Shown here: positions 48,802 to 53,280 of the stretch, piece after piece
Layout: each line of letters begins with the position of its first letter
Numbering within the stretch: position 1 is the first letter of the stretch
Assembly: GCF_001723355.1 (NCBI RefSeq)
Contig: NZ_LPWE01000014.1
Coordinates: 62,001-126,000, forward strand
Direction of reading: 5' to 3'
From: Methyloceanibacter stevinii
GTDB taxonomy: Bacteria; Pseudomonadota; Alphaproteobacteria; Rhizobiales; Methyloligellaceae
Length of the DNA stretch: 64,000 nucleotides
Notes under the pieces: generated by a model
What the model saw: the letters and a program-made list of their open reading frames with translations, nothing else
Told to the model about the DNA's origin: nothing
Database searches by the model: none
Program-made: the position numbers and the translations under genes

Positions 48802-50007
48802 ATGGCAAAAGTTCTCTGTGTACTCTACGACGATCCAATTGACGGCTTCCCGCCGAAATATGCCCGCGACAGCATCCCCCACATCGCGGGCTACGCGGAC
48901 GGGCAGACCGCCCCGACACCCGATGCCATCGACTTCACGCCCGGCGAGCTGCTCGGCAGTGTCTCCGGTGAGCTCGGATTGCGCAAATTCCTGGAAGCCA
49001 ATGGCCACGAACTCGTCGTGACGTCCGACAAGGACGGCGCGGATTCGACCTTCGAGAAGGAACTCGTCGATGCCGACGTGGTCATCTCCCAGCCCTTCTG
49101 GCCCGCTTATCTGACGGCGGACCGGATCGCCAAGGCGAAGAACCTCAAACTGGCCCTGACGGCCGGCATCGGCTCCGACCATGTCGACCTGCAGGCCGCG
49201 ATGGACAAGGGCGTCACCGTCGCCGAGGTGACCTTCTGCAACTCGATCAGCGTCGCCGAGCACGTGGTCATGCAGATCCTATCGCTCGTTCGCAACTACA
49301 TCCCGTCCTACCAGTGGGTGGTGAACGGCGGCTGGAATATCGCCGACTGCGTCGAGCGGTCCTACGACCTGGAAGGCATGGAAGTCGGCACGGTCGCCGC
49401 GGGCCGCATCGGCCTTGCAGTGCTGCGCCGCCTGAAGCCGTTCGGCGTGAACCTGCACTACTACGACAAGCACCGCCTGCCTGTTGATGTGGAGGAGGAA
49501 CTCGGGCTGACCTTCCACCCGAATGTCGAATCCCTCGCCAAGGCCTGCGACGTCGTCACCATCAACTGCCCGCTCCATCCCGAGACGGAGCATCTGTTCG
49601 ACGATGCGATGATCGGCAAGATGAAGCGCGGCAGTTATCTCGTGAACACCGCGCGCGGCAAGATCTGCGATCGTGACGCCGTGGTACGCGCTCTCGAGAG
49701 CGGCCAGCTCGCGGGCTATGCGGGCGATGTCTGGTTCCCGCAGCCGGCGCCCAAGGATCACCCGTGGCGCACCATGCCGAACCACGGCATGACGCCCCAC
49801 ATCTCGGGGACGTCGCTCTCGGCACAAACGCGCTATGCCGCCGGCACGCGCGAGATCCTGGAGTGCTTCTTAGCCGGCAAACCGATCCGCGATGAGTATC
49901 TCATCGTTCAGGGCGGCGCCCTGGCCGGCACCGGCGCACACTCCTACACCGCCGGCGACGCCACCGGCGGCTCCGAGGAAGCCGAGAAGTACAAGAAGGC
50001 AAGTTAA
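48802..50007 (+). CDS. fdh: NAD-dependent formate dehydrogenase
   Basis: 401 residues, the same length as the metal-free enzymes of Pseudomonas sp. 101 and other methylotrophs. Visible catalytic features: Arg in VNTARGKICDRDA, Gln in WFPQPAPKDHPW, His in MTPHISGTSLSAQ. The NAD fold contains VAAGRIGLAVLRRLKPFG. It oxidises formate to CO2, giving NADH, the last step of C1 dissimilation. Terminator at 50,038. Confidence 0.95.
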   Translation: MAKVLCVLYDDPIDGFPPKYARDSIPHIAGYADGQTAPTPDAIDFTPGELLGSVSGELGLRKFLEANGHELVVTSDKDGADSTFEKELVDADVVISQPFWPAYLTADRIAKAKNLKLALTAGIGSDHVDLQAAMDKGVTVAEVTFCNSISVAEHVVMQILSLVRNYIPSYQWVVNGGWNIADCVERSYDLEGMEVGTVAAGRIGLAVLRRLKPFGVNLHYYDKHRLPVDVEEELGLTFHPNVESLAKACDVVTINCPLHPETEHLFDDAMIGKMKRGSYLVNTARGKICDRDAVVRALESGQLAGYAGDVWFPQPAPKDHPWRTMPNHGMTPHISGTSLSAQTRYAAGTREILECFLAGKPIRDEYLIVQGGALAGTGAHSYTAGDATGGSEEAEKYKKAS

Positions 50008-50324: not shown

Positions 50325-51726
50325 ATGACGACCGCAGCGAGCGCGGAATCTGGAGGCGTGTTCGGCTGGCTCGACCGGTCGCACACCGTGGCGAAACCGG
50401 GCTTCAGCCGATGGCTGGTTCCGCCGGCCGCACTTTGCGTGCATCTTTGTATCGGCCAGGTCTACGCGTTCAGCGTGTTCAACCTGCCGATGACCAAGCT
50501 GATCGGCATCACCCACTCCGCGCCGGACGACTGGAAGCTCACCCAGCTCGGCTGGATCTTTTCTCTTGCGATCGTCTTCCTCGGACTCTCCGCGGCCTTC
50601 ACCGGCACCTGGCTCGACCGCGTGGGCCCGCGGCGGGCCATGTTCACCGCCGCCTTGTGCTTTGGCGGCGGTTTTCTGATCTCGGCGCTCGGCATCCATC
50701 TGCATCAGCTCTGGCTGATCTATCTCGGCTATGGCGTGCTCGGCGGTTGCGGCCTCGGGCTCGGCTATATCTCTCCGGTGAAGACGCTGATCACCTGGTT
50801 CCCCGACCGGCCCGGCATGGCCACGGGCATGGCCATCATGGGCTTCGGCGGCGGCGCGATGATCGCCTCGCCCCTGTCCGTATGGCTGATGAAGTACTTT
50901 TCCAGCCCGACCGATGTGGGCGTCATGGGCACCTTCGTCACGCTCGGCATCATCTATCTCGTCTTCATGATGATCGGCGCGGCCTCGTACGCGTGCCTCC
51001 CAACGGCTGGTTGCCCGAGGCTATGAGCCGCCCGCGCAGCCGAAGAAGATGGTCACCACCGCCCACGTCCATGTGGACGAGGCGCTGAAGACACCGCAAT
51101 TCTATCTGCTGTGGGGCGTGCTCTGCCTGAACGTGACAGCCGGCATCGGTGTGCTTGGCCAGGCCTCGGCCATGAGCCAGGAGATGTTTCCAGGGCAGAT
51201 CACGGCCGCGGCCGCGGCCGGCTTCGTCGGCCTCTTGAGCCTGTTCAACATGGCCGGGCGCTTCTTCTGGGCCTCGTCCTCCGACTTCATCGGGCGGCGT
51301 AACACCTACATGATCTTCTTTGCCCTCGGCATGGTGCTCTACGCCCTCGTGCCCTGGACGGGACAGATCGATTCCATCGTCCTTTTCGTCGCCTTGTATG
51401 CCGTGATCCTGTCCATGTATGGCGGCGGGTTCGCCACCATCCCCGCCTATCTCAGGGACGTTTTCGGCACGCGTTATGTGGGCGCCATTCACGGGCGGCT
51501 CTTGACCGCCTGGTCCGCGGCCGGCGTGTTCGGGCCGGTCCTGGTGAACTACATCCGCGAATACCAGATCAATCACGGGGTGCCGAAGGCGGACGCCTAT
51601 TCGGTCACCATGTACATCATGGCGGGGCTTCTCTTCGTCGGGTTCATCTTGAACTGGCTGATGACCCCCGTGGACCACAAGCACCACATGACCGAAGAAG
51701 AACTCAAAGCGTCGATGGAGACTTGA
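50325..51726 (+). CDS. OxlT-like oxalate/formate antiporter family MFS protein (two 1-nt deletions)
   Basis: The first 220 residues (SRWLVPPAALCVHLCIGQVY, AFSVFNLPMTKLIGITHSAP) run to about 50,990, then stop early at 51,024. A second frame encodes RVPPNGWLPE, and a third takes over as MVTTAHVHVDEALKTPQFYL. Adding one base near 50,991 and one near 51,019 restores a 467-residue permease ending VDHKHHMTEEELKASMET. Span 1402 nt, two short of a multiple of three. Placed after fdh, it may exchange formate or another carboxylate. Lesions are probably sequencing errors. Confidence 0.87.
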
Positions 51727-51728
51727 GA

Positions 51729-51866
51729 ATGACCGAAACAACCCATCACGAGACCGTCTCGGGCGCCAACAAGGTCAAGCTGGTCCTGGCCTGGACGCTG
51801 GTCGGCATTCCGCTTCTATGGGGGGTGTTCAACACGCTGGCCAAGGCGGCTTTGCTGTTTCAATAG
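51729..51866 (+). CDS. MFS transporter small subunit-like membrane peptide
   Basis: 45 residues beginning MTETTHHETVSGANKVKLVL with one membrane span (LVLAWTLVGIPLLWGVFNTL). It starts 2 nt after the OxlT-like gene. Small single-span companions are a known accompaniment to this MFS branch. Probably stabilises or regulates the transporter. Confidence 0.78.
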   Translation: MTETTHHETVSGANKVKLVLAWTLVGIPLLWGVFNTLAKAALLFQ

Positions 51867-51965
51867 CTGTCAGAATCTGACAGAACGTCGCAGATGACTG
51901 CGGTCGGGAAAGCACAACATGCTGTTTTACAAGGATAATTCCTGTAAGAATCTGTTAATGCGGCA

Positions 51966-52003
51966 GTCATGCGGTTCTCATCCGCGATCGCCATTATCTA
52001 GGG
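51966..52003 (+). promoter_or_regulatory. Conserved upstream block of pqqA copy 1
   Basis: GTCATGCGGTTCTCATCC at 51,966-51,983, then CCATTATCTAGGGA. The same order appears before copy 3 (52,555 onward) nearly unchanged and before copy 2 (52,285 onward) more diverged, 62-75 nt ahead of each ATG. A promoter or activator site is likely. Confidence 0.6.
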
Positions 52004-52040
52004 ACGATAACGTTCACCGAACGAACTCAAGGAGACGACC

Positions 52041-52130
52041 ATGAAAGAGTGGCTGAAGCCCGAGATCACCGAGTCCGAAGCTGGCATGGAAGTTACTTCC
52101 TACCTTCCGGCTGAGCTCGACCGCGCTTAA
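52041..52130 (+). CDS. pqqA: PQQ precursor peptide PqqA, copy 1
   Basis: 29 residues starting MKEWLKPEITESEAGMEVTS. Glu17 and Tyr21 in MEVTSYLPAEL are the two residues cross-linked by PqqE to make pyrroloquinoline quinone, the cofactor of methanol dehydrogenase. AAGGAG lies 8 nt before ATG. Followed by its own terminator. pqqBCDE are not in the window. Confidence 0.95.
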   Translation: MKEWLKPEITESEAGMEVTSYLPAELDRA

Positions 52131-52156
52131 TTAGCGCTGATCTAGCCTAGTTTTCG

Positions 52157-52196
52157 AAAATGGCGGTCCTAGCGATATGCGGGGCCGCCATTTTTG
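52157..52196 (+). terminator. Terminator of pqqA copy 1
   Basis: AAAATGGCGGTCC ... GGGGCCGCCATTTTT hairpin with T run. Confidence 0.9.
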
Positions 52197-52346
52197 TATG
52201 CGCGACTGGTTGTCGTCTTACTGCGCCGCTCGATCGTGACTGCCGGCAGCACCCTTAATCTGTTCAGATTGTTTTCATTGACGCGTCATGCGCCGCTCAT
52301 CCAAATTGTCGCACCCTAGGGTATCGTTTAACGAAAGGAGACGACC

Positions 52347-52436
52347 ATGAAAGAGTGGCTGAAGCCCGAGATCACCGAGTCCGAAGCTGGTATGGAAGTG
52401 ACTTCCTACCTTCCGGCCGAGCTCGACCGCACTTAA
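52347..52436 (+). CDS. pqqA: PQQ precursor peptide PqqA, copy 2
   Basis: 29 residues, identical to copy 1 except the last residue (Thr29 instead of Ala29); the other base changes are silent (GGC/GGT, GTT/GTG, GCT/GCC). Glu17 and Tyr21 are kept. AAAGGAG precedes ATG 52347. The upstream block is the most diverged of the three. Confidence 0.95.
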   Translation: MKEWLKPEITESEAGMEVTSYLPAELDRT

Positions 52437-52458
52437 TTAGCGCTGATCTAGCAAACCA

Positions 52459-52499
52459 CGAATGGCGGCTCTCGCGATGGCGGAGCCGCCATTTTTGTT
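52459..52499 (+). terminator. Terminator of pqqA copy 2
   Basis: AATGGCGGCTC ... GAGCCGCCATTTTT hairpin; the paired arms differ from copies 1 and 3 by compensating changes (GGTCC/GGGCC to GGCTC/GAGCC), which keep the stem. Confidence 0.9.
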
Positions 52500-52554
52500 T
52501 GCGTATTGGGCTCCGCGAGCGCCCCACCGCTGTTCAGATAGTTTTCATGCACGA

Positions 52555-52593
52555 GTCATGCGGTTCTCATCCACCATCCCCATTATTGTAGGA
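52555..52593 (+). promoter_or_regulatory. Conserved upstream block of pqqA copy 3
   Basis: GTCATGCGGTTCTCATCC then CCATTATTGTAGGA, almost the same as before copy 1. Further upstream, CTGTTCAGATAGTTTTCAT resembles the region before copy 2. Confidence 0.6.
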
Positions 52594-52625
52594 CGACTTC
52601 ATTGATTGAACCGAAGGAGACGATC

Positions 52626-52715
52626 ATGAAAGAGTGGCTGAAGCCCGAGATCACCGAGTCCGAAGCTGGCATGGAAGTGACTTCCTACCTCCCGGCTGAG
52701 CTCGACCGCGCTTAA
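52626..52715 (+). CDS. pqqA: PQQ precursor peptide PqqA, copy 3
   Basis: 29 residues identical to copy 1 at the protein level, with two silent changes (GTT/GTG, CTT/CTC). AAGGAG precedes ATG 52626. Own terminator downstream. Confidence 0.95.
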   Translation: MKEWLKPEITESEAGMEVTSYLPAELDRA

Positions 52716-52739
52716 TTCGCGCTGATCCAGTAAAGTTTT

Positions 52740-52783
52740 CAAAAATGGCGGTCCCAGCGATATGCGGGGCCGCCATTTTTGTT
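52740..52783 (+). terminator. Terminator of pqqA copy 3
   Basis: AAAAATGGCGGTCC ... GGGGCCGCCATTTTT hairpin, almost the same as copy 1. Confidence 0.9.
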
Positions 52784-52956
52784 TGTGGCGGCTGTTATTG
52801 CGAGGCCGCAACCGCGACACCCTCCATGGAGGGTGACAGACCCTCCCCCCGAAATTATGGTCCCACGGCGCTGGACGCCTCTCGCTGCCCCAAGGCGCCG
52901 AGAGCCCAGCCGGCGCACCGCGCGATTGGTCGCAAGAAGCAAGAGGGACCCCTGCC

Positions 52957-53280
52957 ATGCCCTGGGTGTATCTTATCGCCGCCGGGCTCTTCGAGGTCGG
53001 CTTTGCCTCGACGCTCAAACTCACCGACGGTTTCACGAAACTCTGGCCGACTCTGATTTTCACCGTCTGCATCGTTCTTTCGTTCGTCCTTCTCAACAAG
53101 GCGGTGAAGGATCTCCCGATCGGAACCGCCTATGCGATTTGGACGGGGATTGGCGCTGCGGGCACTGCCATTATCGGGATCCTCGTCTATAAGGAGCCCG
53201 TCACGGCGCTGCGCCTGTTCTTCATCGCGACGCTGATCGGTTCCATCATCGGATTGAAACTCGCAACAACGACCACATGA
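52957..53280 (+). CDS. SMR-family guanidinium exporter, Gdx/SugE-like
   Basis: 107 residues, four spans. Starts MPWVYLIAAGLFEVGFASTL with essential Glu13, and contains DLPIGTAYAIWTGIGAAGTA, which marks the Gdx/SugE branch rather than the QAC branch. Exports guanidinium in characterised relatives. Its stop overlaps the next start as ATGA. No guanidine riboswitch was identified upstream. Confidence 0.85.
   Translation: MPWVYLIAAGLFEVGFASTLKLTDGFTKLWPTLIFTVCIVLSFVLLNKAVKDLPIGTAYAIWTGIGAAGTAIIGILVYKEPVTALRLFFIATLIGSIIGLKLATTTT

Follow-up and report, generated by a model that had tools for sequence, protein, structure and literature searches.

Three tandem pqqA cassettes in Methyloceanibacter stevinii carry a phased promoter box that recurs upstream of pqqCDE

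The pqqA array and its place in the genome

The window analyzed here is a stretch of 64,000 nucleotides from Methyloceanibacter stevinii (G000:C14:62001-126000, where G000 denotes the genome). It contains three consecutive pqqA units, and, as the original prediction had stated, each encodes a near-identical 29-residue PqqA precursor and has its own promoter block, ribosome-binding site and terminator (Table 1). The peptides read MKEWLKPEITESEAGMEVTSYLPAELDR followed by Ala, Thr and Ala in units 1, 2 and 3, residue 29 being the sole difference. AAGGAGA lies directly 5' of the ATG in every unit, and the start codons are spaced by 306 bp (units 1 and 2) and 279 bp (units 2 and 3), in line with the expected repeat step of about 280–306 bp. 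A search of the genome with PF08042 (cut-off 21.1 bits) returned each unit at 23.1 bits; unit 1 alone, searched separately, reached 24.5 bits with the same cut-off. The Glu-x3-Tyr motif of PqqA, named in the accessible text of PMC12423496, is present in all three units as E17-V-T-S-Y21. An Rfam search of positions 51700-53000 gave no match at E values up to 1.

Table 1. Features of the three pqqA units (positions within the window).
Feature	Position	Strand	Description	Basis
pqqA unit 1	52041..52130	+	29 aa, Ala29; RBS AAGGAGA 52029-52035	ORF; PF08042
pqqA unit 2	52347..52436	+	29 aa, Thr29; RBS AAAGGAGA 52334-52341	ORF; PF08042
pqqA unit 3	52626..52715	+	29 aa, Ala29; RBS AAGGAGA 52614-52620	ORF; PF08042
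Unit 1 box	51945..51981	+	TAAG, TAAT, TCAT, TCAT at 51945, 51956, 51967, 51978	half-site scan
Unit 1 proposed -10	51992..51997	+	CATTAT, 10 bp past last half-site	sequence; role inferred
Unit 1 terminator	52157..52195	+	hairpin and T run	sequence, folding
Unit 2 box	52264..52300	+	TCAG, TCAT, TCAT, TCAT at 52264, 52275, 52286, 52297	half-site scan
Unit 2 core	52308..52320	+	GTCGCACCCTAGG replacing CATTAT	rows compared by eye; role inferred
Unit 2 terminator	52461..52496	+	hairpin and T run	sequence, folding
Unit 3 box	52534..52570	+	TCAG, TCAT, TCAT, TCAT at 52534, 52545, 52556, 52567	half-site scan
Unit 3 proposed -10	52581..52586	+	CATTAT, 10 bp past last half-site	sequence; role inferred
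Unit 3 terminator	52741..52780	+	hairpin and T run	sequence, folding

Each unit ends in a GC-rich hairpin followed by T's, and the hairpin is kept in 34 of 34 terminators folded, units of relatives included (three pqqC-linked units, G011_1 and G002_1, which is cut by a contig end, were set aside). The paired stem changes claimed for terminator 2 are present but modest: compared with unit 1, one change is two-sided (C-G to U-A) and one is one-sided (U-G to C-G). The proposal that Thr29 alters handling by the protease or PqqD found no support; Thr29 occurs in one of the 29 genus units counted, and in G014, a near relative, residue 29 is Ala.

The array occupies G000:C14:114047-114688. We detected pqqE at G000:C12:330039 and pqqB at G000:C4:19365, both over cut-off and both on contigs other than the array's, so the earlier statement that no pqqBCDE lies nearby holds. 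Two ORFs ahead of pqqE (L085) we take, mainly by position, to be pqqC and pqqD. No pqqA outside the array was found by the PF08042 search of the genome, nor any pqqA-like ORF by a regular-expression search of the 9 kb around pqqCDE (L085). The genome thus contains pqqB and pqqE together with the presumed pqqC and pqqD, none of the three pqqA copies is linked to them, and no pqqA source other than the array was found.

Two genes before the array lies a gene for an NAD-dependent formate dehydrogenase (48802-50007, + strand; NF005750 over cut-off), and most related loci long enough to include this position also have it beside the array. The MFS transporter gene at this locus (lactate/oxalate-formate type) is interrupted in G000 (50325-51026 and 51049-51726, + strand) but forms one open frame of about 466 codons in G004, G013 and G014; the interruption is either recent decay or a sequence error.

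A phased box at the array and upstream of pqqC

Upstream of each unit, TCA/TAA half-sites recur as direct repeats at 11-bp steps, with four repeats per unit in G000 and as many as six in relatives. Neither this phasing nor the lack of further pqqA genes in the genome had been noticed in the original prediction. They stand at a fixed distance to the -10 region, except in unit 2, which lacks CATTAT. Across 35 upstream regions we counted 85 TCA pairs at a lag of 11 (shuffle mean 2.0, highest value 8 in 300 shuffles) and 67 at a lag of 22; the 35 regions are not independent because the sequences are related (G011_1, which has no box, was left out). The three window units alone gave 7 pairs at lag 11 versus 0.14, a count reached in none of 2000 shuffles. 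We found no description of this box in the accessible part of the open-licence literature.

A half-site scan of both strands, with a threshold of 3.4 points summed over six steps (TCA = 1, TAA = 0.7), covered loci from 8 of the 17 genus genomes and from nine other genomes; the reversed control counts overlapping loci. In the 64-kb window the scan returned three matches, all of them the pqqA promoters, and none in the reversed control. The 9 kb around pqqCDE of G000 contained a single match, directly 5' of pqqC; this box is weaker (3.7 of 6), and one of its half-sites is shifted by a single base from the 11-bp step. Matches were likewise obtained in the array and pqqC regions of G002, G008, G010, G011, G012, G015 and G016 and in the arrays of two Methyloligella genomes (G018 and G023). 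No box was seen in the pqqE/pqqCDE stretches read from these two (L093, L037), in the pqqB stretch of G000 (L086) or in any pqq locus read from G019, G020, G024, G030, G033, G038 and G039; G031 showed one weak match (3.4) near pqqA on the opposite strand. One row of the box scoring matrix was out of register (score -23.3).

Stricter patterns show how rare the box is in the genomes searched. TMATN7TCATN21CATT occurs at 16 places in 8 genomes, comprising 12 array units, 4 sites upstream of pqqC and none elsewhere, and its reversed control gave none; the four pqqC sites (G000, G003, G004 and G014) lie at a distance to pqqE that is equal within 4 bases. TCATN7TCATN7TCAT occurs at 18 places in 7 genomes: 9 array units, one site before pqqC of G012 and 8 elsewhere, one of these lying at the kinase gene in G018 discussed below. 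A looser four-half-site pattern with 2 mismatches gave 46 matches in 11 genomes, assigned by coordinates: 31 fall on pqqA units or pqqC, 4 are at or next to kinase/regulator genes (one in G018, two in G019, one in G023), one is ahead of a 915-aa ORF preceding pqqB in G018, and 10 are at four further places, of which two are simple repeats. In G000 it matches the three units only, the pqqC site lying beyond 2 mismatches.

Calcium- and lanthanide-dependent methanol dehydrogenases use PQQ as their cofactor, and the original prediction linked the array to methanol dehydrogenase. The cofactor is the part of this link that stands: no box was found in the 12 PQQ-dehydrogenase loci read out of 40 matches, nor in four further stretches with five PQQ-dehydrogenase genes of G000 (the gene at G000:C11:512361 was left out of the search). 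For the loci covered, we reject a box common to methanol dehydrogenase genes.

Pho boxes and other direct-repeat sites of the OmpR/PhoB family likewise have repeats at 11-bp steps immediately 5' of the -10 region. The box described here differs from them in its four half-sites (up to six in relatives), in its TCATG-type core and in its location, at pqq loci and beside candidate kinase/regulator genes (G018, G019 and, by distance, G023). The box could belong to a general regulator, PhoB or CtrA, with the array as one member of a phosphate or cell-cycle regulon. G000 does encode a PhoB-like response regulator (L200; the name PhoB comes from reading the sequence), and the step equals that of the Pho box; the CtrA site is TTAA-N7-TTAA. 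A broad regulon, however, should give more sites, whereas the array-tied patterns match no further place in G000, with the proviso that weaker or different sites would be missed because these patterns are narrow. We regard a general regulator as quite unlikely.

By eye, an element like TACGATTTGAA / TTGCGATTTGAA takes the place of the TCA box upstream of pqqC-linked pqqA genes of relatives (L088, L089, L102), and a similar element lies upstream of a pqqA array in G030 (L094). It is perhaps a second, older pqqA control element.

Conservation of the units and multi-copy pqqA elsewhere

An assembly artefact is ruled out, because G004 and G014, two single-contig genomes of the genus, also have three units. 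Absence or decay of copies in close relatives, named in the original prediction as part of what would refute it, was encountered only in small part: G004 and G014 keep three units and other species two or one, so that copy number at the array locus ranges from one to three in the genus. Decay is seen in one unit of G007 (L071:2102), where a frameshift past the core changes the C-terminus (peptide end ...PADSTALNSR) and leaves the Glu-x3-Tyr core intact. The PF08042 search returned the array only in G000, G003, G004, G013 and G014, and the array plus only two weak matches under the cut-off in G009. Besides the array, G007, G008 and G012 have a divergent pqqA (MREWHKP..., read as peptides) directly before pqqC, and similar pqqC-linked genes in G011, G015 and G016 score 26.8 to 29.7 bits. 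A third kind of pqqA (MNEWLKPHIQETEAG...) was noticed in G011 (L076:846), outside the array and without box or array neighbours.

The order formate dehydrogenase, MFS transporter, small ORF, pqqA unit(s), SugE-like, MaoC-like, SodC is conserved in most array loci of the genus and in the two Methyloligella genomes, where contigs allow. Two loci of G011 have none of these neighbours and G015 none downstream, about 3 kb of extra sequence separates pqqA from the MaoC-like gene in G001 and G018, and no SugE-like match was found in G001, G010, G016, G018 and G023.

On a tree of the units (34 rows, without three pqqC-linked units, G011_1 and G023_3), unit 1 of six species forms a group (95/79), unit 2 groups apart (100/99; eight rows, including both G006 rows) and unit 3 forms a weak group (88/36). 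Here and in the box, matrix, lag, codon and terminator analyses, the first unit of G006:C58 and the unit of G011:C273 were omitted. For 15 units from six genomes, chosen for clear unit positions on the tree, the 100 bp upstream differ at 0.140 per site between orthologues (33 pairs) versus 0.369 between paralogues of the same genome (12 pairs). The coding parts differ by 0.037 in both comparisons and cannot tell the duplication history because they are too short and constrained. Judged by these promoters, which resemble the same position in other species more than their own neighbours, the array is old, and positional conservation leads us to reject recent or concerted duplication of whole units for the promoters.

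Of 29 genus units, 22 encode the identical peptide, and over all 29 units 5 of the 29 codons are invariant, 19 show synonymous change only and 5 an amino-acid change (G007_1, with its frameshift, and Methyloligella were not counted). Synonymous difference in the neighbouring maoC among species amounts to 8 to 33%. The claim that the units are independent cassettes under selection is supported by the position-conserved promoters, the peptide held constant amid synonymous change and the hairpins. If the copies were redundant products of neutral tandem duplication that merely persist, the variable copy number and the frameshifted G007 unit would be accounted for; these same three features, and a constancy held among species with that much maoC difference, speak against it and make it very unlikely.

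Multiple pqqA copies are also found elsewhere in the order: among 297 genomes, 95 have pqqA (E up to 0.003), 59 of these two or more copies and 28 three or more. According to the title of a 2015 study by Ge, pqqA copies reportedly respond differently and one dominates. G030 has three tandem copies away from pqqC, pqqB and pqqE. Two or three tandem copies at about 150–160 bp were also noted in Methylobacterium-like loci (L256, L257, L258), where the 18–19 kb read contain no pqqC, pqqB or pqqE match; the tandem orphan copies of L256 and L258 differ from the array in having no box. The accessible text of PMC4109929 describes 3 to 12 pqqA copies with usually one set of other pqq genes in Methylophilaceae, and that of PMC11317620 reports precursor supply as rate-determining in Methylovorus sp. 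MP688. G000 resembles these organisms in its several pqqA genes and, as usual there, one set of the others, but every pqqA copy found in it belongs to a single tandem array, separate from pqqB and pqqCDE, with a box common to the array and pqqCDE; neither tandem cassettes nor a box are mentioned in what is accessible of the two papers. Copies outside the pqq operon are likewise documented, as far as the sources are accessible, in Methylorubrum extorquens AM1 (orphan pqqA2/pqqA3; PMC11317620) and Hyphomicrobium denitrificans FJNU-6 (five copies with unequal expression levels; PMC9851590), both of which, unlike G000 by PF08042, also have an operon pqqA. With multi-copy and orphan pqqA in print and tandem copies in other families, the array is therefore not new in kind but a member of a known one. 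For Methyloceanibacter caenitepidi Gela4, the accessible text of the genome paper lists pqqBCDE as scattered over the genome (GL4_3155, 2349-2351) and mentions no pqqA (PMC6417678). This gap may be filled by the array of G004, which we infer to be Gela4 and in whose single contig pqqB and pqqE are similarly placed.

The original prediction also allowed for differential regulation of the units. The core GTCGCACCCTAGG of unit 2 is kept in G004, G013 and G014 and nearly so in G003 and G009, and unit 2, without CATTAT, may be tuned differently. The units might then each respond to a condition of their own, with unit 2 relying on its distinct core promoter, and act as switches instead of a multiplier. 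Such use would suit the core kept in most unit-2 orthologues, the separate position of unit 2 on the tree, the unequal expression in FJNU-6 and, in the accessible text of PMC11317620, the response of the two orphan M. extorquens copies to the neodymium source. The same four-half-site box on all three units nevertheless predicts common control, which is the larger signal because that one box is common to the three; we consider differential use unlikely, and what remains of the earlier claim is a weak indication from the unit 2 core.

A candidate regulator and a proposed control of precursor supply

PF00486 has 11 matches in G000. One of them, a response regulator at G000:C4:4679-5365 with a kinase gene directly upstream in the same direction, lies in a pair about 14 kb from pqqB, and among the 11 it alone has reciprocal best matches in G008 (84%) and G018 (83%) and none in the pqqA-less genomes G017 and G027. 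Among 61 genomes, 19 encode a match of 70% or more to its first 60 residues (in G007 over 45 residues only), and all 19 have a PF08042 match; the other matches listed reach at most 56%. The genus genomes without it, G006 and G015, are both fragmented, and in pqqA-bearing genomes without it (G020, G024, G030, G033, G038 and G039) the pqq loci that were read showed no box. In G018 and G019 a box adjoins the kinase gene; in G023, from coordinates only, one lies at a like distance. The kinase promoter region of G000 has no box, and G019 has the response regulator without a box at its pqq loci. The correlation makes this pair a candidate regulator, although box and regulator may occur together only by descent.

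The surrounding stretch (G000:C4:1-20000, L249) comprises the kinase/regulator pair, an SsuA-like ABC transporter, a TIGR03864 ATPase (over cut-off; PQQ-dependent alcohol dehydrogenase system), an ExbB/TolQ-like protein, pqqB and TonB-receptor-like ORFs whose matches to TonB-receptor models stay below the cut-offs. It perhaps serves uptake of PQQ or lanthanides.

In G252 and G133, presumably Methylobacterium-like judging by their PqqA, a response regulator beside the operon-type pqqA has the candidate as its best G000 match (39–40% identity, 149 bits vs 132 for the next match); we call it MxbM by position only. MxbDM of Methylobacterium is adjacent to pqqA (PMC9320726) and needed for mxaF expression (PMC5784242), according to the accessible text of each source. 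As a two-component regulator near pqq genes MxbDM is like the candidate pair, and its described position (accessible text of PMC9320726) fits that in G252 and G133; the MxbDM-like regulator differs from the candidate in identity (only the 39–40% above), in position and in the lack of a box at the G252 and G133 pqqA loci.

Each PQQ consumes one PqqA, while PqqB-E are catalysts. On present evidence we think it probable on balance that the boxed cassettes multiply this consumed peptide substrate in step with the enzymes through an OmpR/PhoB-type activator. Such a protein would bind in tandem to the 11-bp half-sites on one helix face, just upstream of -10, and would turn on the three separate promoter-RBS-pqqA-terminator cassettes together with the unlinked pqqCDE, whose weaker box lies at the same distance to its -10. 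Array and pqqCDE are probably under one common activator of this type. Because PqqA is consumed and PqqB-E act catalytically, three short terminated transcripts beside one enzyme operon would favour substrate over enzyme, and a raised precursor dose, as originally proposed, is plausible. It is from the sequences that we infer that the bound protein activates instead of represses, that it belongs to this family, that array and pqqCDE are co-regulated and that the copies serve dosage. More tentatively, and with some doubt, the candidate pair near pqqB may run a regulon of PQQ genes only, in which the number of boxed cassettes sets the ratio of precursor to enzyme.

To our knowledge, little is known of how PQQ supply is matched to demand. 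The arrangement suggests that one switch matches precursor supply to the PQQ enzymes. With a short, specific box on both the precursor cassettes and a distant enzyme operon, such matching becomes directly testable, and the box itself offers a bait for finding the regulator. If the proposal is true, pqqA copy number would set the stoichiometry in the making of a cofactor that derives from a ribosomal peptide.
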